From Opitutales bacterium (GTDB lineage: Bacteria > Verrucomicrobiota > Verrucomicrobiia > Opitutales > UBA953), in NCBI GenBank assembly GCA_017935025.1, contig JAGBIL010000028.1:1-64000 (forward strand): DNA of 64,000 nucleotides, in the 5' to 3' direction. The notes under the pieces were generated by a model. The model was not told the origin of the DNA. It made no database searches and saw only the letters and a list, made by a program, of their open reading frames with translations. A program made the position numbers and the translations under genes. This document shows, piece after piece, positions 22,760 through 61,684 of this stretch; the first letter of the stretch is position 1, and every line of letters begins with the position of its first letter.

Positions 22760-22784
22760 TTTGAAAGAATAAGGAGGGCGAAAT

Positions 22785-22805
22785 GAGGAATTAGGAATGA
22801 GGAAT
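22785..22805. repeat. Heptamer-period intergenic repeat (GAGGAAT units)
   Basis: Three consecutive 7-base units: GAGGAAT, TAGGAAT, GAGGAAT. It lies in the gap between the methyltransferase start and the stop of the next minus-strand gene. It belongs to a family of 7-bp-period intergenic sequences in this window. Confidence 0.6.
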
Positions 22806-22841
22806 TTCCGATTTTCGGCTCCCCGTTTCCGATTCGTTTTT

Positions 22842-25703: not shown

Positions 25704-26372
25704 ATGCGCAATATTCTTTTCAAAAACCGCCGCGCTTTCACGCTCGTGGAAATTCTCGTTGTGATCGCGTTGCTCATCGTCCTCGCGTCCATTACGTTCG
25801 CGCTTGCCGGTCCGGTTAAAACCTCGATTCTGACCACGAAGGCGAAATCTCAAATTCAGAAAATTTCCCTCGCACTCAACGAATTTAAAAACAAATACGG
25901 CGAATACCCGATGACGGACGGCGGCGAAAGCGACGAGGATTGGGCGGAATTGCTGATCGATTCCGTGCGCGGCGACAGAATCCTCGTGCGTCGCGGCGGG
26001 AAACTCAAAATGGCGAAGTACAACGAAGGCCGCTCCGGCGCGGAACCGCTCCCGTTCCTCGCGCTCGGCGAATACGCGCTTGATGATGATTCCGACGTTG
26101 AAAACGCGAAAATGATTCTCGACCCGTGGGAAAATCCCTACCAATACCGCTACAACAAAATCACCGGCGGAAAGCCCGGAACGCAGTGGGACGCCCCGAC
26201 GTTCCTTCTCATTTCCGCCGCCGCCGATTACGAAGAACCGCCGTCCGATGACGATTACTTTTGCGGCGACATGGAGCGCTCCGGTCTTTTTGAAACGGAC
26301 GCATCTCAGGAAAACTACTATTACGAGGACCGCCGCGCCGACAATCTCGTCAACATCGACATGGCGCAGTAG
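25704..26372 (+). CDS. Type II secretion/type IV pilin-like pseudopilin
   Basis: 222 residues from ATG 25704. The prepilin leader and first helix are plain: NRRAFTLVEILVVIALLIVL, with the Phe/Thr/Leu/Val/Glu5 pattern of class III-signal pilins processed by PilD. The globular part resembles GspG-type proteins (FKNKYGEYPMTDGG; ILDPWENPYQYRYN). It is followed 13 bases later by a large anchored protein. No other secretion genes are in the window. Confidence 0.85.
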   Translation: MRNILFKNRRAFTLVEILVVIALLIVLASITFALAGPVKTSILTTKAKSQIQKISLALNEFKNKYGEYPMTDGGESDEDWAELLIDSVRGDRILVRRGGKLKMAKYNEGRSGAEPLPFLALGEYALDDDSDVENAKMILDPWENPYQYRYNKITGGKPGTQWDAPTFLLISAAADYEEPPSDDDYFCGDMERSGLFETDASQENYYYEDRRADNLVNIDMAQ

Positions 26373-26385
26373 TTTTTTTTTACAA

Positions 26386-27894
26386 ATGTATATCCTCCAC
26401 AGACGCATCTACGCGAGCAACGATGTCATTCTCCGTATGTGGCTTGTCGCGGCGGCGATAATCCTTGCCGTAACGGTGTTTCTGATGTGGAGCGACCGTT
26501 TCCGCGAAAACGTCGACACGAGTATCGCGCGCGTCTCCGTTTTCGGCGTGGAGGCGGAGGGGCGGGAAGCCGCCAATTTCACGGGAACGCGCGGTTTTTT
26601 CAAAAAAATGAACAAACTCGGCTTGCCGGCGACCACGCGCAACGCCGAGCTGAAAGCGCTTTTCGAGCAGTTGGAAGAAACGGGAACACTCGTCTCTCTT
26701 CCGAATCCGCCCGTGCTTTGGGTTTATGCGGAAGGCTTGACCAAGGAAGACCGCGACCGCTGCGTGCAAACCTACGGAAAAGTTTTTTTTGAAAAATCAA
26801 AATTCTGCTTCTCCGTCATCGACGCGCGCGGCTTCGCGATTCAGCTTGATCCCGATACGTTCCGCGTGCTTTGGGCAAAGGACGGCGGCGCGGTTTGCGC
26901 GCTTCCCTTGCTCTCGCTGCCGGACGATACGGGAACGCACGGCTTTACGTTTCGCGTGGAAGAACGCTTGCCCGACGGCATTTCGTGGAAAAATTGCGGC
27001 GAAATCAAAATTCCCGCGTTCCCGTTACCTGCCATGGACGAAGCCGCCGTTGCCGCGCTCGCCGCTCCGGTCGAAAACTATTCCGCCATCGCCGAAATTT
27101 CCCCGGAAAACGAAATCGACCCGCCGAGCGTTGCGATAGAATCGCTCGTCGTGCCGCGCGATTGCCGCTTTTTCTCGTCGTCGCCTGCAGACCGTGCGGC
27201 GTTCGGCACGCTGAGCGTGCGCATCGGGGAAAACAAATCCGGAAAAGTCCCCGCCGTGGCGTGGAGCCTCGAAAATTTCGGGCTTTTCTCTCCCGCCGAC
27301 GCTCCTACGCAGGAATTTCCGATTACGCGCGCCGACGCGTTGCACAAAAACGTGCGTTTTCTCGAAAACGAAATTTTTGAAAACAACGCGGACGGCGTTT
27401 TGCGCGTTCCCGTGGCGAAAACGTTGTTCCCGTCGGCGGACGCGCGCGGGAACGCCCGCCCGTGGCTCGTGCAGATGCGTTTTGTGCGCAGCGTGTTTTT
27501 CCCGGAAGATTTTCACGCGTTCCCGCCGTTGCGTATCGGGAAAAATGATTCCGTTTTGGCGGAGCCGATTTCGACGGAGAACGCGACGGCAAAAGTGCGC
27601 GCGTTTCGCGTTCCCGATTATTTCCGCGTCCGCAGCGAAAAAATTCCTGCCATCGTGCTCGAAATCTCGCAGGAACTCGGTGTCGGGGACGATTTTTACT
27701 GGGTTCCGTACCGCGTTAAAACGGCCGCGGGCGAAGAGCTTTTCCCGGAAAGCACGGTCAATGTGAAGCCGGGCGTGAAGCAATATTGGTTCCTGCCGCG
27801 CCGCAGCGCTCCCGCGAAAATCGAAGTGGTTTACGCCGTGACGCGCAGCGTTTTCTGCGAAGCCGAAATCGCGCCGACCGTCGCCGCCGAGTAG
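26386..27894 (+). CDS. Membrane-anchored protein paired with pseudopilin, unknown function
   Basis: 502 residues from ATG 26386 (MYILHRRIYASNDVILRMWL); the frame runs further upstream into the pseudopilin gene, but only this start yields a sensible N-terminus. One membrane segment at about residues 18-37 (RMWLVAAAIILAVTVFLMW), then a long exported region rich in beta-like stretches with no motif I recognise. The 13-base spacing implies co-transcription with the pseudopilin, so a role in the same envelope machine is possible. Confidence 0.6.
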   Translation: MYILHRRIYASNDVILRMWLVAAAIILAVTVFLMWSDRFRENVDTSIARVSVFGVEAEGREAANFTGTRGFFKKMNKLGLPATTRNAELKALFEQLEETGTLVSLPNPPVLWVYAEGLTKEDRDRCVQTYGKVFFEKSKFCFSVIDARGFAIQLDPDTFRVLWAKDGGAVCALPLLSLPDDTGTHGFTFRVEERLPDGISWKNCGEIKIPAFPLPAMDEAAVAALAAPVENYSAIAEISPENEIDPPSVAIESLVVPRDCRFFSSSPADRAAFGTLSVRIGENKSGKVPAVAWSLENFGLFSPADAPTQEFPITRADALHKNVRFLENEIFENNADGVLRVPVAKTLFPSADARGNARPWLVQMRFVRSVFFPEDFHAFPPLRIGKNDSVLAEPISTENATAKVRAFRVPDYFRVRSEKIPAIVLEISQELGVGDDFYWVPYRVKTAAGEELFPESTVNVKPGVKQYWFLPRRSAPAKIEVVYAVTRSVFCEAEIAPTVAAE

Positions 27895-42442: not shown

Positions 42443-43033
42443 ATGAGCTACATTATTCCCAGTGTTGTTGAGCGCGATGCCCGCGGCGAAAGGTCGTGGG
42501 ACATTTACAGCCGCCTTCTCAAAGACCGGATCATTTTTCTCGGCTCGCCGATTTACGACGATGTCGCCAACGCCGTTATCGCACAAATGCTTTTCCTGCA
42601 AATGGAAGATCCGAAAAAGGATATCCACATCTACATCAACTCGCCCGGAGGAAGCGTCACGGCAGGTATGGCGATTTACGACACGATGCAGTTTTTGAAA
42701 TGTGACGTGGTGACGTACTGCGTCGGTATGGCCGCATCAATGGGCACGGTTTTGCTCGCCGGAGGCACGAAAGGCAAACGTTACGCTTTACCGAATTCGA
42801 GCGTGATGATCCACCAGCCGAGCGGCGGCGCGGGCGGGCAAGCGTCGGATATTTCCATCGCGGCAAAAGAGATTTTGCGCTGGCGTGAAACGCTCAATCG
42901 TGTTCTCGCCAAGCACACCGGAAAAACCGTCGAGCAAATCGCCAAAGATTCCGACCGCGACCACTACATGACGGCGCAGGAAGCGCTTGACTACGGGATC
43001 GTGGACAAAGTCATCACGCCTGCGGAGCAGTAG
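42443..43033 (+). CDS. clpP: ATP-dependent Clp protease proteolytic subunit
   Basis: 196 residues from ATG 42443 with AAGGAAAA upstream. The catalytic triad is visible: Ser in [14 protein letters not shown], His in [10 protein letters not shown], Asp in [10 protein letters not shown]. It forms tetradecamers that degrade substrates unfolded by ClpX. clpX follows, but a small four-helix gene is wedged between the two. Confidence 0.95.
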
Positions 43034-43040
43034 TACAGCT

Positions 43041-43082
43041 GTTTGGCGTTTAGCGTGTATTGTTTAATGTTTAGTGTTTGAT
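43041..43082. repeat. Heptamer-period repeat at the 5' side of the four-helix gene
   Basis: Six consecutive 7-base units: GTTTGGC, GTTTAGC, GTGTATT, GTTTAAT, GTTTAGT, GTTTGAT. The last unit runs into the ATG of the next gene. It begins seven bases after the clpP stop. Confidence 0.75.
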
Positions 43083-43464
43083 GAATCGGGATGAACAGGT
43101 TTTTGCGTTTGAGCGGCTGGAGGTTTGGCAATCTGCACGAAAGCTTGTCCGCCGAATTTATGCGAAAACCCGAACGTTCCCGTGGGAAGAACACTTCGGC
43201 TTGAGGTTGCAAGTTCGTCGCGCGGTCGTCTCCGTCGCCTCAAATATTGCGGAAGGAACGTCTCGGCGTAGTGCGAACGACAAAGTCCGCTTCATCGAAA
43301 TCGCTTATGGCTCACTGATGGAGGTTTACTGCCAGCTGAAAATCGCTTTCGATCTTAAAATGGTGACCGACGACGATTTTTCCGAGTTGAGGCCTGAAAT
43401 TTTTCTTATCGCCAATAAGCTCAGCGCACTGAAACGGACTTACGCCGGAAAACCGTCTCGCTAA
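43081..43464 (+). CDS. Four-helix bundle protein (S23/IVS family)
   Basis: 127 residues from ATG 43081. Family signature: FERLEVWQSARKLVRRIYAK, QVRRAVVSVASNIAEGTSRR, SLMEVYCQLKIAFDL. Relatives are encoded within intervening sequences of 23S rRNA genes in Leptospira and Coxiella and as scattered solitary genes; they form pentamers, and function is unknown. Inserted between clpP and clpX, with 7-bp-period sequence touching both ends. Confidence 0.9.
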   Translation: MNRDEQVFAFERLEVWQSARKLVRRIYAKTRTFPWEEHFGLRLQVRRAVVSVASNIAEGTSRRSANDKVRFIEIAYGSLMEVYCQLKIAFDLKMVTDDDFSELRPEIFLIANKLSALKRTYAGKPSR

Positions 43465-43466
43465 AT

Positions 43467-43494
43467 ATTACACATTCCACACTCCACATTTCGT
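43467..43494. repeat. Heptamer-period repeat at the 3' side of the four-helix gene
   Basis: Four consecutive 7-base units: ATTACAC, ATTCCAC, ACTCCAC, ATTTCGT, beginning three bases after the stop codon. Read on the other strand the units resemble GTGTAAT and GTGGAAT, close to the GTTTAAT type at the other end. Confidence 0.65.
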
Positions 43495-43538
43495 AAACCA
43501 CCCTTTGGCGACATATACCCGCCACTACCCGAATAAAA

Positions 43539-44885
43539 ATGAGTAAACAGGACGAACCTAAGTGCGCGTTTTGCGGCCGTTCCCGCAGCGATGTCGGGAT
43601 TTTGATTATCGGACCGGACGGCGCAAGCATTTGCGACGAGTGCGCAAAACTCTGCGTTGAAATGACGGACAGCCAAAGCGCGCGGAAAAATCCCGCCGCT
43701 GAGGAGATGTCTCCGGCAAAAGTCGCGGACACCGTCGCGAAAATGCGCACGGAAAAAAAGCCGGACGCGGAACCGCTGAAACCGATCGCACTCAAAAAAC
43801 CGTCTGAAATTTGCGCCACGCTCGACGATTATGTCATCGGGCAGGAAAAGGCGAAAAAAGTACTTTCCGTCGCCGTTTACAATCACTACAAGCGCTTAAA
43901 CGACAAACTTTTCGGTGGCGCCGCCGGTGCGGGAACGGCATCTGAAGTTGCTCCCGCCGTCGATTTGAAAAACGTCGAAGTCGAAAAGAGTAACATTCTC
44001 GTTATCGGTCCCACGGGCTGCGGGAAAACGCTTCTCGCGCGCACGCTTGCTCGCGTGCTCGACGTGCCGTTTGCCATCGCGGACGCAACGACGCTAACTC
44101 AGGCAGGCTACGTCGGAGAAGACGTGGAAAACATTCTCGTGCGCCTTTTGCAGGCGGCGGACGGCGACGTGCAACGTGCCGAAACCGGAATCGTTTACGT
44201 TGACGAAATTGACAAAATCGGGCGCAAGGGGGACTCCGCCTCGGTTACGCGCGACGTTTCCGGTGAAGGCGTTCAACAGGCGCTTTTGAAAATCATCGAA
44301 GGCTCGGTTTGCAACGTTCCGCCGAACGGCGGGCGCAAGCACCCCGACCAAAAGTACGTTCAGATCGATACTTCAAATATTCTCTTCATCTGCGGCGGTG
44401 CTTTTGTCGGCTTGGAGCGCATTATCGGCTCGCGCATCGGCAACAAATTCCTCGGATTTGACACTTCCGTCGAAACCGGACGGGAACTCTCAGCCGAGCA
44501 AATTATGGCGGAACTTCAACCGGAAGACCTTTTTGAGTTCGGTATGATCCCGGAATTTATCGGGCGTCTCCCGATTGTTTCCGCGCTTTCGCAACTGAGC
44601 GGCAAAGACCTTGAGCACATTTTGACGCAACCGAAAAACGCTTTGCTTAAACAGTATCGCAAGTTGCTTGCGATGGAAGGTGTGGAGCTCGTTTTTGAAG
44701 ACGATGCCGTTTCCGCCATTGCCGAAAAAGCAATCAAACTCGGCACGGGCGCGCGCGGACTGCGTTCCATTCTCGAGAAAATCATGCTCGAAACAATGTA
44801 TGAACTGCCGAATCGCGGGAACGCCAAGCGCGTCGTGATCAACGCCGACGTTGTTTCCGGAGCCACGCAGCCGCAAATCTCGTAA
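43539..44885 (+). CDS. clpX: ATP-dependent Clp protease ATP-binding subunit
   Basis: 448 residues. The N-terminal zinc domain has [12 protein letters not shown] and ICDECAKLC. The AAA+ core has Walker [14 protein letters not shown], Walker [17 protein letters not shown] and [15 protein letters not shown]. It unfolds tagged or damaged proteins and feeds ClpP. About 500 bases separate it from clpP because of the inserted four-helix gene; it may have its own promoter. Confidence 0.95.
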
Positions 44886-47415: not shown

Positions 47416-48336
47416 ATGAAAATTGCAAACAATATTCTCGGGCTCATCGGAAAAACGCCGCTTGTGCGCCTGAACGCGGTAACACCTCCGGGGGCAAATA
47501 TTTTGGCAAAGTTGGAATTTTTGAATCCCTCCGGCTCCGTCAAAGATCGCGCCGCGCTCGCAATGGTTGAAGACGCGGAGGCGAAAGGCCTGCTGAAAAA
47601 AGGCGGGTTGATCATCGAGCCTACCAGCGGAAATACGGGTATCGGTCTTGCGCTCGTTGCTGCCGTAAAAGGACACCGCCTGATTTTGACGATGCCGGAT
47701 ACGATGAGTATTGAGCGGCGCAAATTCCTTGCGAGCTTTGGCGCGGAACTTGTTTTGACGGACGGCACCAAAGGCATGAAAGGCGCAATCGAAAAGGCAC
47801 TCGAACTCAAGCGGCAGAATCCTGGCGCGTTGCTCCCGCAGCAGTTTGAAAATCCGGCAAACGTTGATGCTCACCTAAAAACGACGGCGCAGGAAATTTG
47901 GAATGACACGGATGGCAGTGTCGATATCGTCGTCGCCGGGGTCGGGACGGGCGGAACGATTACCGGAATCGGGCGCGCTTTGAAAGCGCAAAAACCGGAC
48001 GTGAAAATTTTTGCCGTCGAGCCGGAAACCTCACCCGTGCTCTCCGGCGGAGCCGCGGGACCGCACAAAATTCAGGGCATAGGAGCCGGATTCGTGCCGA
48101 AAATTTATGACGCAAGCGTAGTCGACGGCGTAATTCGCGTTTCTGACGATGATGCGGGAGCAACAGCGCGTCGCCTCGCGAGGGAAGAAGGTATTCACAC
48201 GGGGATCTCGGCGGGAGCGGCAACCTTTGCCGCGCTTTCACTTGCGGCAAAACCGGAGAATGCGGGTAAAACAATCGTTGTAATTATTCCCGACACGGGA
48301 ACGCGCTATTTGTCCACCTGGCTCTACAGCGAGTAA
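47416..48336 (+). CDS. cysK: Cysteine synthase A
   Basis: 306 residues. O-acetylserine sulfhydrylase, making cysteine from O-acetylserine and sulfide with PLP. The PLP lysine is in [27 protein letters not shown] is the substrate loop and [15 protein letters not shown] binds the cofactor phosphate. The end [12 protein letters not shown] is typical. Promoter and palindrome lie upstream; an Rrf2 regulator lies convergently downstream. Confidence 0.95.
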
Positions 48337-48350
48337 GCGTTCCCGAGTAC

Positions 48351-48388
48351 AAAAAAATCGGCGATTTTTGAGATCGCCGATTTTTTTT
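48351..48388. terminator. Bidirectional terminator between cysK and the Rrf2 gene
   Basis: Seven A then ATCGGCGAT-type stem: left arm 48351-48365, loop of seven bases, right arm ATCGCCGAT followed by T (48373-48388). Confidence 0.92.
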
Positions 48389-48407
48389 CGTATCTTTTTT
48401 CCGTAAC

Positions 48408-48842
48408 TTAATGAAGGCACATTCCGTTGTGTTCCTTATGGTGGTCGATGATTTCCTGAAGAGTAATTTGAGAAAGGTCTTCTCGGATCCTCTGATTGAT
48501 GATATCCCAAGTTTCGCGCGCCGTGCAGATTTTTTCCCGCTTACATTTCCGAACACAGGCAAGGCAGGGCGCGATGGAAACTTTCCCTTCCATGACTTCG
48601 ATAATTTCCAGAAGTGTAAGTTTTTGGGGGTCGCAACGCAGGAAATAACCGCCTTTGGCACCGCGTTTAGATTGAACCCAACCCGCTCGGCACAGCGGAA
48701 TAATGAGGCGTCCGACGTACTTTCGGGATAGCCCTTGAGATTTACAGATGTCGCTAATCATGCGCGGTTTTTCTTCTCCGACGAATTTTGCTAAATCCAT
48801 CAAAATACGTAGTGCATACCTACCCCGAGTCGAGATCTTCAT
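48408..48842 (-). CDS. Rrf2-family transcriptional regulator
   Basis: 144 residues. The N-terminal winged helix is typical: MKISTRGRYALRILMDLAKF, then SQGLSRKYVGRLIIPLCRAG and SKRGAKGGYFL. Four cysteines (about residues 93, 96, 100 and 106, in PCLACVRKCKREKIC) could hold an Fe-S cluster or another metal, though the spacing is not the IscR one. Next to cysK it is probably a CymR- or IscR-like regulator of cysteine or Fe-S supply. Confidence 0.88.
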   Translation of the reverse strand: MKISTRGRYALRILMDLAKFVGEEKPRMISDICKSQGLSRKYVGRLIIPLCRAGWVQSKRGAKGGYFLRCDPQKLTLLEIIEVMEGKVSIAPCLACVRKCKREKICTARETWDIINQRIREDLSQITLQEIIDHHKEHNGMCLH

Positions 48843-49079
48843 GGTGCCTCCAGATGATAATATTTATGGTGTATTACGAAAAACGAATGAAAGTTGTTAA
48901 CTTCGAACCAGATTATTGAGGTTGAATGTCTACCGAGTCAATAAGAAAACCCGTCGCAATACGCATAAATACAGGCAACCCCGATTTTATGCGGTGGAGA
49001 AAAAGTGGAGGACCGTCTGTAAGGAAAGGGTATTTTAAGGCGTTTACAGGCGGGGACTCAAAATTTCGTTTTGGCGTGA

Positions 49080-49122
49080 AAAAGCCCGCAATCCCTTTGT
49101 TCATGCGGGTTTGCGGGCTTTT
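49080..49122 (-). terminator. Terminator downstream of tRNA-Ser
   Basis: AAAAGCCCGCAA (49080-49091) pairs with TTGCGGGCTTTT (49111-49122), followed on the minus strand by T residues. It lies five bases beyond the tRNA 3' end. Confidence 0.8.
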
Positions 49123-49126
49123 GAAA

Positions 49127-49215
<89 letters not shown>

Positions 49216-49325
49216 GTGTGTTAAGGATCAATCTAAAAGGCTCGAGCTCGTGGAGGCAAGGATTTTGTTTTCCCGAAAATAGCGACTTGAAGCGACGGGA
49301 ACGTCTCGCATAATACTCCGGAATT

Positions 49326-49862
49326 ATGATCAATTCAGACCATTTGCCGGCAGTTTCCGTTTTGCCGTTTAAAATTAGCGTGTTAATTTTTATCCGCGAC
49401 GGGAACGGAAGATTTTTAATGATTCAGCGGCGAAAAGCCCCGAATAAAGGCTGTTGGAGCCCGGTCGGCGGAAAGTTGGAAATGGCACTTGGCGAGTCTC
49501 CGTTTGAGTGTGCTTGCCGCGAGGCGTTTGAGGAAACCGGAATGCGAATTTCTGCGTCGGATCTCCATCTTTTCGGAATGGTTTCCGAGCGCTCTTACGA
49601 GGGAAGCGGGCATTGGCTCATGTTCCTTTTCGAATGCCTGAAGCCGATAGAATCGCTTCCTCCGGAAATTGATGAAGGGCAGTTTGCGTTTTTCTCGCGG
49701 GAAGAAATTGATTCTGCGGCGATTCCGCCGAGCGACCGCACGCTGGTTTGGCCGGTTTACGATTCCCACCACAAGAGTTTTCTTGCGTATCGGGCGCAGT
49801 GCGGGAACGGCGATGCGCAGCGGGTTGATGAGGAATCGATGCTCTCTCCGAATTTTTTGTAA
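49326..49862 (+). CDS. NUDIX hydrolase
   Basis: 178 residues. The Nudix box is present with a two-residue-longer first half: GGKLEMALGESPFECACREA then FEETGM, giving the REx2EE metal ligands. It hydrolyses a nucleoside diphosphate linked to another group; the substrate cannot be inferred. It stands alone between tRNA-Ser and a bidirectional terminator. Confidence 0.88.
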   Translation: MINSDHLPAVSVLPFKISVLIFIRDGNGRFLMIQRRKAPNKGCWSPVGGKLEMALGESPFECACREAFEETGMRISASDLHLFGMVSERSYEGSGHWLMFLFECLKPIESLPPEIDEGQFAFFSREEIDSAAIPPSDRTLVWPVYDSHHKSFLAYRAQCGNGDAQRVDEESMLSPNFL

Positions 49863-49874
49863 TTTCGGAAAAAC

Positions 49875-49911
49875 AAAAAAGGTGAAAGCCTCAAAAACTT
49901 TCACCTTTTTT
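49875..49911. terminator. Bidirectional terminator between the NUDIX gene and argB
   Basis: AAAAAAGGTGAAAG pairs with CTTTCACCTTTTTT over a nine-base loop. Confidence 0.93.
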
Positions 49912-49930
49912 CATTTTTGAAATCCGGTTC

Positions 49931-50863
49931 TTACGCCGTTTGCGTCGGCGGAAGCACAACATCCGGATGGACGATTTCCGTGCCGACACCTTTGTCTGTG
50001 AAAATTTCCAGCAGTAGCGAGTGTGGCGTGCGTCCGTCGATGAAGTGAACGCGGCGGACTCCGCTTTGAAGCGCGCGCACGGCGGAATCCACTTTCGGAA
50101 TCATGCCGGAGGAAATAACACCGGATTTTTTCAGCTCGGGCACTTCATGGACGCGGAGTGTGGAGATGAGTGTTCCCGGGTCCTGCGGGTCGGCAAGCAG
50201 TCCGGGAACGTCCGACATAAACACGAGGCGGCGCGCTTTCAGTGCGCTGGCAACGGCGCTCGCCGCCGCGTCCGCATTTGTATTGTAGGGACGGTCGCTG
50301 TCATCGAGCGCAATCGGAGAAATGACCGGAATTTTTCCTTCGTTGAGCGCTTTTTTAATGATTTTGGTTTTGACGGATTTGATGTCACCGACGAAGCCGA
50401 GGTCGACCGGATCGCCGTTTTCGTCTTTCGCGCAAAGTTTTTCGCAAACGTTGACGAGATTGCCGGGCATCCCCACGGGAACGCCTTTGTGTTTTTCGAT
50501 GAGGCGGCAAATATCGACGTTGATTTCGTTGTTGAGTGTATCTTCAACGATTTTGATCGTGCGTTCGTCGGTTACGCGGATTCCGTTGCGCCACTGCGGC
50601 GTGATATCGGTTTTTGCCATGGCGCGCGTGATGGCTTTTCCCCCGCCGTGGACGACAACCACTTTGATCCCGACGGAGTTGAGAAAAACGATGTCGGATG
50701 CGACGCGTTCCCGCGTGGCGGGATCATCGGAATCCATGAAACTTCCGCCGTATTTAACGACAAAAACGGAGTCGTGAAAACGCTGGATGTACGGGAGCGC
50801 TTCCAAAAGGACGCTGGCTTTGGCAATGAGTTCGGCTTCGTTAATGGTTTTTTCTTTGATCAT
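49931..50863 (-). CDS. argB: Acetylglutamate kinase
   Basis: 310 residues from the ATG at 50863 ([20 protein letters not shown]); the longer frame starts in non-conserved sequence. It phosphorylates N-acetylglutamate, the second arginine step. [14 protein letters not shown] and [15 protein letters not shown] bind ATP and substrate; [20 protein letters not shown] and GGMIPK-like [15 protein letters not shown] complete the fold. The N-terminal extension is the type found in arginine-inhibitable enzymes, so feedback control is likely. Confidence 0.94.
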
Positions 50864-55485: not shown

Positions 55486-55527
55486 CGAATTTTTTAGAAA
55501 AAAAAATTAAATGAACAAGTAGTAAGT

Positions 55528-55619
55528 GAATAACGAATAATGAATAGCGAATAATTCATTGTTCAAAATTTTTGCCTTTGGCAAAAATCTTAGCACTGCG
55601 TTATTCATTACTCGCTGTC
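55528..55619. repeat. Inverted heptamer-period repeats within the efflux operon
   Basis: Left side at 55528-55555: GAATAAC, GAATAAT, GAATAGC, GAATAAT. Right side, read on the other strand from 55619: GAATAGT, GGACAGC, GAGTAAT, GAATAAC. Between them is a hairpin AAAATTTTTGCC against GGCAAAAATCTT. It fills the 136-base gap between adaptor and permease genes. Confidence 0.7.
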
Positions 55620-55621
55620 CA

Positions 55622-56728
55622 CTATTCACCAACACGGACTTTCCGCCCGGGAAGCGCTTTGTGCGTGCCGTCGGTAATGATGCGTTCGCCCGGCTTCAGT
55701 CCGCTTTTGACGAATTGCAGTTTTTCCGTCGTTTGGGCGAGTTCGATGTCGCGGCGATCCACCTTGTTTTCCGCATCAAGCACATAAACGTAGGCGCTTT
55801 TCGAATCGTACATTACGGCGGAGGGAATCACAGCCGGCATCTTTGTTCCCGTGCGGCGTTCGAGTAAAACAGAAACCGTGCTTCCGGGAACGAGTTTGGA
55901 CGCGGCGTTCGGGAACTTTGCGTAAATCTGCACGGCGTCCGTGTGTTCGTTCGCCGTGTTGTCGAGAAAATCAATCTCGCCGTCGATTTCGTATTTCTTT
56001 CCGTCCGCCAAAATGAGCGAAATTTTGCTCTGCTCGCGCAATGTTTTTTCGTCACCGAAAATCGAAAGAAAATCGCGGTTACTCAGCGCAAAGCGCACAC
56101 GCACGGGATCGAACTGCACGATGGTCGTCAACGTTCCCGTGGCCGGTGTAACGTAGCTTCCTGCGGGAACGGCGTTGACTCCGATGCGCCCATCCGCCGG
56201 CGCGTAAATGCGGGTGTTTTTCAAATCGTCCAGTGCGACGATCAGATCCGCTTCCGCCGCCGAATACAGTGCCTTGTTCGCTTCGTATTCGCTGCGCGCG
56301 CTTTCGAGTTCGTCCTGCGTCGAAACTTCCTTTTCAAAAAGCTGCTGCGTGCGCTCGAAATTTGCTTTGGAATATGCCACGCGCGCGCGGTACTCGGCGA
56401 TTTTCGCTTCCGCACTCTTGCGCGCCGCGATGTAGCGGATGTCGTCCAAGCGGTAAAGCAACTGACCTTTTTTGACAAAATCTCCTTCTTTGAAGGCGAC
56501 TTCGAGCAAATCGCCGGAAACTCGTGAAGTTACGGCAACGCTCGCCGGAGAAACCACGCGTCCGGGATAGCGCCGCGTTACGACGTTGTCCGCCTCCGAC
56601 ACTGTTCCCGCCGCGACCAATTCCAATTTTTCTGCGGGAACGCTCTGCGCCCACGCGTGCGTTCCCGCGAAAAACGCGGCAAGCAAGCCAAAAATTAAAG
56701 CCGATTTCGTTTTCATAAAATTGAACAT
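55622..56728 (-). CDS. RND efflux periplasmic adaptor subunit
   Basis: 368 residues with a Sec signal peptide (ALIFGLLAAFFAGTHAWA). Membrane fusion protein: lipoyl-like half motif VAVTSRVSGDLLEVAFKEGD and GQLLYRLDDIRYIAARKSAE, a coiled-coil hairpin, then the second lipoyl half with IYAPADGRIGVNAVPAGSYV. It bridges permease and outer membrane factor. First gene of a three-gene pump operon, no dedicated regulator beside it. Confidence 0.92.
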   Translation of the reverse strand: MFNFMKTKSALIFGLLAAFFAGTHAWAQSVPAEKLELVAAGTVSEADNVVTRRYPGRVVSPASVAVTSRVSGDLLEVAFKEGDFVKKGQLLYRLDDIRYIAARKSAEAKIAEYRARVAYSKANFERTQQLFEKEVSTQDELESARSEYEANKALYSAAEADLIVALDDLKNTRIYAPADGRIGVNAVPAGSYVTPATGTLTTIVQFDPVRVRFALSNRDFLSIFGDEKTLREQSKISLILADGKKYEIDGEIDFLDNTANEHTDAVQIYAKFPNAASKLVPGSTVSVLLERRTGTKMPAVIPSAVMYDSKSAYVYVLDAENKVDRRDIELAQTTEKLQFVKSGLKPGERIITDGTHKALPGRKVRVGE

Positions 56729-61614: not shown

Positions 61615-61649
61615 AAAAAAAGCGCGCTCCCTTGCGGGAACGCGCTTTT
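61615..61649. terminator. Bidirectional terminator containing the iterated motif
   Basis: AAAAGCGCGCTCCC pairs with GGGAACGCGCTTTT, one wobble, four-base loop TTGC. It ends the ligase gene (+) and pckG (-). Confidence 0.85.
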
Positions 61650-61684
61650 CTTTAAGCTTTAAGCTCTAAACTCTAAGCTTTTCT
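61650..61684. repeat. Heptamer-period repeat next to the pckG stop
   Basis: Five 7-base units: CTTTAAG, CTTTAAG, CTCTAAA, CTCTAAG, CTTTTCT, reaching the pckG stop codon. Confidence 0.7.

Follow-up and report, generated by a model that had tools for sequence, protein, structure and literature searches.

S23/IVP proteins are widespread and, to our knowledge, have no assigned function; the family is known mainly from the intervening sequences (IVSs) of rRNA genes and as a relative of the Avd protein. Such IVSs are the nearest described relatives of the S23 elements reported here. In Coxiella burnetii, the 23S rRNA IVS contains an S23 ORF within about 430 bp, has inverted repeats at its ends, and has been called selfish and possibly mobile (PMC4990558). 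Three tandem heptamers, GACAGAT, directly precede the start codon of this S23 ORF (PMC4990558), the only report of heptamers at an S23 ORF in the literature that we found. A lone S23 ORF, a similar size and inverted-repeat ends are thus common to the 23S rRNA IVS and to the element of this study, but the Coxiella IVS is located in rRNA helix 45, and its heptamers were reported only as a variable feature of strains, not as paired ends and not in connection with mini-elements or non-rRNA S23 genes.

Other known systems show partial similarities. The Avd protein of DGRs is a homologous four-helix bundle (PF05635-like; PMC10053308), but it acts together with a reverse transcriptase and a TR/VR pair, whereas most S23-bearing genomes that we tested gave no reverse transcriptase match. 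As in MITEs, IS and REP-RAYT systems, small palindromic non-autonomous copies share their ends with a gene-bearing element; unlike in those systems, a transposase is absent, and the termini are set by a repeat period and have a sequence particular to each locus. Tandem intergenic TAACTGA heptamers, suspected of horizontal spread, occur in Beggiatoaceae, Cyanobacteria and Bacteroidetes, but they consist of one fixed heptamer, almost always in direct orientation only, and S23 is never mentioned in connection with them (PMC4679880). Within the literature searched (preprints and most subscription papers were outside the search), we found nothing linking non-rRNA S23 genes with inverted tandem-repeat arms or mini-elements.

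Results

An S23 gene with inverted heptamer arms separates clpP from clpX

The protease genes clpP and clpX are adjacent in their usual arrangement. In the window (the whole 64-kb stretch of DNA analyzed here, on contig C2 of the 2.03-Mb Verrucomicrobia/Opitutales draft genome G000), they are separated by an element of about 450 to 490 bp, consisting of a tandem 7-mer arm, a gene for an S23 / 23S_rRNA_IVP four-helix bundle, and an inverted tandem 7-mer arm (Table 1). The initial annotation had placed an S23-family gene at this junction, and profile searches confirmed it: the protein matches PF05635 (E 8.6e-33, 113 bits against a curated cut-off of 33.8) and TIGR02436 (E 2e-31, 108 bits against a cut-off of 24). 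PF05635 is the sole protein family in the element, which does not encode a known transposase and which, unlike the 23S rRNA IVSs, lies outside any rRNA gene. The solved structures 2gsc and 2rld are homologues of this protein, with 5 chains listed for each, and a Xanthomonas S23 protein has been published as a homopentamer, as cited in PMC4990558.

Table 1. Positions in the window of the clpP-clpX element, its host genes and other tract-related features.
Feature	Positions	Strand	Basis
Solo period-7 tract, GAATGAGGAATTAG type	22775-22814	.	Autocorrelation; comparison with G005
Empty site; immediately behind a stop codon here, G005 has an insert of ~80 bp whose inverted arms are of GAATTAG type	26364-26400	.	
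clpP, upstream host gene	42443-43033 (from ATG)	+	ORF and synteny
Left (upstream) arm, degenerate period-7 tract, ~6 units	43040-43083	+	TRF, lag-7 autocorrelation
S23 / 23S_rRNA_IVP gene, four-helix bundle of 127 aa, the only gene in the element	43081-43464	+	PF05635
Right (downstream) arm, period-7, ~4 units, inverted relative to left	43461-43492	-	Autocorrelation
clpX, downstream host gene	43539-44885	+	ORF
S23-free mini-element, AATGAATAGTG family, inverted heptamer arms and short hairpin core	55520-55640	.	
Solo period-7 tract, CTTTAAG type	61645-61683	.	TRF, autocorrelation

Heptamer-period DNA had also been noticed at both ends of the gene, six units before it and four after, in agreement with our measurements (TRF gave 5.7 units of 7 for the left arm). 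The left arm, with units GTTTGGC GTTTAGC GTGTATT GTTTAAT GTTTAGT GTTTGAT, extends into the S23 start codon, and the right arm starts at the stop codon. While the 7-bp period stood, the earlier description had missed that the arms are inverted and not direct: the reverse complement of the right arm (ATGTGGA-GTGTGGA-ATGTGTA) resembles the left one (GTTTAGC-GTGTATT-GTTTAAT-GTTTAGT). It also has to be corrected in that each locus has its own unit sequence, the period (7 or 8) being the constant, and in that most tracts belong to S23-free mini-elements.

Using ClpX, we retrieved the junction from the seven further members of the genus. In G001, G002, G003, G005 and G006, clpP directly adjoins clpX with no S23 gene between them; these are the five of seven sisters in which the junction could be read directly. 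Flank matching showed that the junction of G007 is likewise empty. The clean absence proposed for sister genomes is therefore found as an S23-free junction in five of them but not as a single-base difference, since even in the nearest sister, G005 (ClpX 96% identical), the clpP tail and the spacer have diverged from the window and the empty site is not base-exact. At the junction occupied by S23 in the window, the clpP gene of G005 (L038) has a longer and unrelated C-terminus.

Further S23 genes of G000 occupy comparable places, at pta-lolC, queD-queE, gatC-gatA and atpA-atpG (gene names assigned by reading translations). At pta-lolC, both G005 and G007 have an S23-free mini-element as the occupant instead, and at queD-queE G005 has a divergent S23 gene with another heptamer. 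The S23 gene is not a fixture of clpP-clpX throughout the order, and tracts also stand on both sides of other S23 genes, in G000 as well as beyond it.

Tracts of period 7 are in excess in the window and in the genome

Using a strict threshold (at least 16 of 21 lag-p matches), the 64-kb window contains 5 period-7 tracts and none of periods 4-6, 8-11 or 13; one period-12 tract and four period-14 tracts were also found, three of the latter overlapping period-7 tracts. A scan of 815 kb of G000 gave 143 period-7 tracts; a first-order Markov shuffle yielded 3, and periods 4, 5, 8, 11 and 13 give 1 to 3 tracts each. As an outside control, a 50-kb stretch of E. coli K-12 had no period-7 tract at the threshold. 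The counts in the window, together with the comparison between genome and shuffle, rule out a chance origin of the tracts. Their density in G000 is about 175 per Mb, most of them in S23-free mini-elements. The solo tract of GAATGAGGAATTAG type (Table 1) has one extra unit at the same place in G005.

In contig C11 of G000 (L238, contig positions ~47449-50818), we also observed that a heptamer group, ACTGATAACTGATATCTGATAGG, is itself tandemly repeated, forming higher-order arrays with inverted mates.

Period-7 and period-8 arms flank S23 genes in many phyla

We retrieved 80 S23 loci from many phyla by a conserved peptide, the majority of the genomes examined being metagenome drafts, and looked for tracts within 150 bp of the S23 gene (at least 15 of 21 matches). 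Period-7 tracts were found upstream in 40/78 and downstream in 40/79 flanks, against 3% of control windows, and period-8 tracts in 22/78 and 18/79, respectively, against 1% of controls. The harmonic period 14 was enriched as well, while periods 4-6 and 10-13 showed no enrichment in the flanks of these loci. Tracts were present on both sides in 51 of the 80 loci; the idea of a small cassette bounded by heptamer tracts is therefore supported both here and in S23 loci of many phyla. The tracts upstream and downstream of a gene are generally reverse complements of each other, and each locus has a unit of its own (for example AGAGGAG, GTGAATG, GCTGAGG and TTGGTTG, or the octamer AAAGGCAC in G031). 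The median inverted arm score was 18 within a locus, compared with 9 when arms of other loci were used and 10 in direct orientation.

Annotated S23 genes also occur on cyanobacterial plasmids, with an upstream period-7 tract in 6/6 of those examined and a clear downstream tract in 4/6; Calothrix PCC 7716 and Aulosira have a short or weak run downstream. The six are not all independent, as the two from Calothrix brevissima plasmids represent the same larger conserved region. The S23 gene of Nostoc edaphicum (L299, pNe_5) lies between nrdB and nrdA with a GTAGGGA unit, and that of Pseudanabaena galeata (L301, plasmid pPg_01) is inside a CRISPR locus, between cas6 and cas4, with an AAAGCTA unit.

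Considering the orientation of neighbors, called by a simple ORF rule, S23 is sense to both in 56/65 loci and antisense to both in 0/65; among the cyanobacterial plasmid elements, 2/6 are antisense to both. The sense bias likely reflects a dependence on read-through transcription.

Some S23-free mini-elements share the ends of resident S23 elements

Inverted tract pairs of G000 fall into two main classes according to the distance between the arms: 0 to 60 bp (54 pairs), and about 380 to 416 bp, corresponding to S23 genes. No other recurring gene was found between inverted arms; pairs at longer or intermediate distances are few, and what lies between their arms is unrelated. The short class is organized in families, the largest of which has AATGAATAGTG arms and a CGCAGTG inner border, with 29 paired copies, in the data analyzed, matching the ends of one resident S23 element of G000. 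The gatC-gatA element has 4 matching mini-element copies, its inner border AGAGGTAAATGC included, and a reversed-sequence control gave 0 for both of these S23 elements. Terminal inverted repeats are therefore common to full S23 elements and mini-elements. Four of the six S23 elements tested in G000 have only 0 to 1 paired mini-elements (atpA-atpG 1, pta-lolC 0, queD-queE 1, clpP-clpX 0), and the arms of atpA-atpG are of low complexity, the control having matched too.

Within the genus, the AATGAATAGTG family is present in 5/5 S23-bearing genomes (11 to 82 matches) and in 0/3 S23-free ones. The ClpX of G002, which is S23-free, is as close to that of G000 as those of G003 and G007. Tract density is 60 to 175 per Mb in S23-bearing and 0 to 14 per Mb in S23-free genomes of the genus, in small samples that for G001 and G009 lie partly near S23 genes. 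At the junction of the mini-element of the window (Table 1; G000 C2:55527-55632), G005 has a different tract element. We also noted a short repeat, TTCCTCAAAA(A)CGAATT, adjoining several tract elements of G000: on C8 (minus strand), at C11:8652, on C18 (L243) and at C1:21893.

Comparison of sister genomes supports mobility

Between G000 and G005 (~89% nucleotide identity), 23 syntenic tract elements were compared. Of these, 13 are conserved; at 5 the sister lacks a tract, and at the remaining 5 the same junction holds another tract element. A clean case of presence and absence is provided by position 26364, where the window is uninterrupted and G005 has an insert; its target duplication would be AATG, although the reading is ambiguous. 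Tract elements also nest within one another. One nested mini-element of G000 (C18, L243, contig ~48840-49030) is absent in G005 (C20:45128) and has TTAAG on both sides, possibly a 5-bp target duplication.

G031 has two S23 elements with 92.7% identity along 453 bp; their surroundings are unrelated, and the homology does not extend beyond the AAAGGCAC octamer arms. The same genome contains an S23 copy with an internal deletion, as well as numerous partial copies of the AAAGGCAC family at dispersed positions. The partial copies (L288-L292, L294 and others) consist of the left arm and the first ~50 bp, that is, the start of the S23 coding sequence, the rest being absent, and their tracts are often longer than in the full element.

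On the other hand, between G003 and G007 (92% identity) 22 of 26 tract elements are conserved and none of the 26 is a clean gain, leaving no insertional difference from which a target duplication could be read. Element activity can therefore be low, and movement is not constant. Taken together, these genome comparisons make the mobility of S23 elements well supported, and we conclude that the S23 element is mobile, that its ends are inverted tandem repeats, and that its sole protein is a predicted pentameric four-helix bundle.

Discussion

The explanation that we favor for the whole of these data, and that we hold to be probable, is a mobile S23 element whose arms would be read by the S23 homopentamer and whose DNA would probably be cut or copied by host enzymes. 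Other readings were weighed against it. The arms could be host RNA-processing or regulatory sites, with S23 as a TRAP-like RNA-binding regulator and with the arms, once transcribed, pairing into a stem within operon mRNAs that RNase III cuts as in the IVSs. Mutually complementary arms and the strong sense bias of S23 would fit such a role, and RNase III excision of the IVS has been published (PMC4990558). However, in 29 orthologous comparisons only 3 double changes keep a pair while 49 single changes break one; pairing of the arms is thus not conserved after insertion, which indicates no long-term selection on the stem, and a selected RNA stem was rejected for this lack of compensatory changes. 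Considering also the high turnover of tract elements between sisters and the plasmid elements that are antisense to both neighbors, we find an RNA role unlikely. The sense bias would equally fit an RNA intermediate, that is, a retroelement in which S23, being homologous to Avd (PMC10053308), acts as Avd does in DGRs with a reverse transcriptase in trans. We judge this very unlikely, as RVT_1 had no match in the S23-bearing genomes G003, G005, G007, G009 and G031, the last of which nevertheless has two near-identical copies; in G000 it is found only on contig C33, with none on the contig of the window. Given its absence from most S23-bearing genomes tested, a retroelement driven by reverse transcriptase was rejected, and a reverse transcriptase is not supported as an obligatory helper.

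S23 might also be a passenger, captured between tandem-repeat palindromes that owe their spread to something else, such as a Y1 transposase or replication slippage. Most tracts are indeed without S23, and Y1 transposases are present in several of the genomes examined, but S23 is the only recurrent cargo, mini-elements follow the presence of S23 and the repeat period follows the S23 lineage. Moreover, whereas REP-RAYT requires Y1 with palindromes, Y1 is absent from S23-rich G009 and present in G002, which has neither S23 nor tracts. As the presence of Y1 follows neither S23 nor tracts, Y1/RAYT was rejected and Y1 is not supported as an obligatory helper, and we regard the passenger reading as quite unlikely. 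That clpP-S23-clpX is an ancestral operon with tracts present by chance has nothing in its favor among our results and can be practically discounted: the empty sister junctions rule out such an operon, and the tract statistics (S23 flanks against controls, genome against shuffle) speak against chance.

Returning to the mobile S23 element, recognition of the arms by S23 is inferred, and the clustering of the period on the S23 protein tree (see below) lends it indirect support. Arms have about 4 to 5 units (the median being 4.4-4.9 and the detection floor about 4), and this, together with the pentameric structures of the family, makes one unit per subunit a natural hypothesis; a unit number fixed at five was not retained, because such a median with such a floor does not discriminate. 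In reading an arm of 4-5 units, each subunit of the S23 homopentamer would take up about one unit; the homopentamer would also pair both ends, acting in cis and, on mini-elements, in trans. As S23 is without a recognizable catalytic domain, host enzymes would probably do the cutting or copying, and the S23 gene would probably be expressed by read-through from the operon in which it resides.

Reading of one unit per subunit would account for the greater importance of unit length over sequence and for a period that tracks the S23 lineage. On the S23 protein tree, tract period (7 or 8) is clustered, with 11 changes against a shuffled mean of 20.9 and 0/500 shuffles as low, near-copies contributing to this result; one all-octamer clade spans at least 4 phyla. 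Arm sequence and S23 protein similarity are not correlated between phyla (rho 0.001), and we rejected the idea that the former tracks the latter, the relationship being weak overall, absent between phyla and equalled by the opposite-orientation control. The lack of correlation fits a reading of the period, but would be equally expected without any recognition.

If S23 were the typical sole gene of a mobile element, this would explain the family as well as many unexplained intergenic heptamer tracts and palindromes of the genomes studied here. A transposon without a recognizable transposase, with ends defined by a period, would represent a new recombination principle, and recognition by repeat length would allow each copy to carry its own end sequence. 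We tentatively suggest, with somewhat less than even confidence, a new class of mobile DNA based on a non-enzymatic pentameric ring, with ends read by repeat length (7 or 8 nt) and not by sequence; the rRNA IVSs and Avd would then belong to one family with it, as branches.

Finally, in Xanthomonadaceae/Rhodanobacteraceae (L115, L134, L146, L152, L154 and L164), S23 is kept, with tracts, in one neighborhood of ~2.8 kb across several genera, where it is possibly a long-term resident or a domesticated copy.
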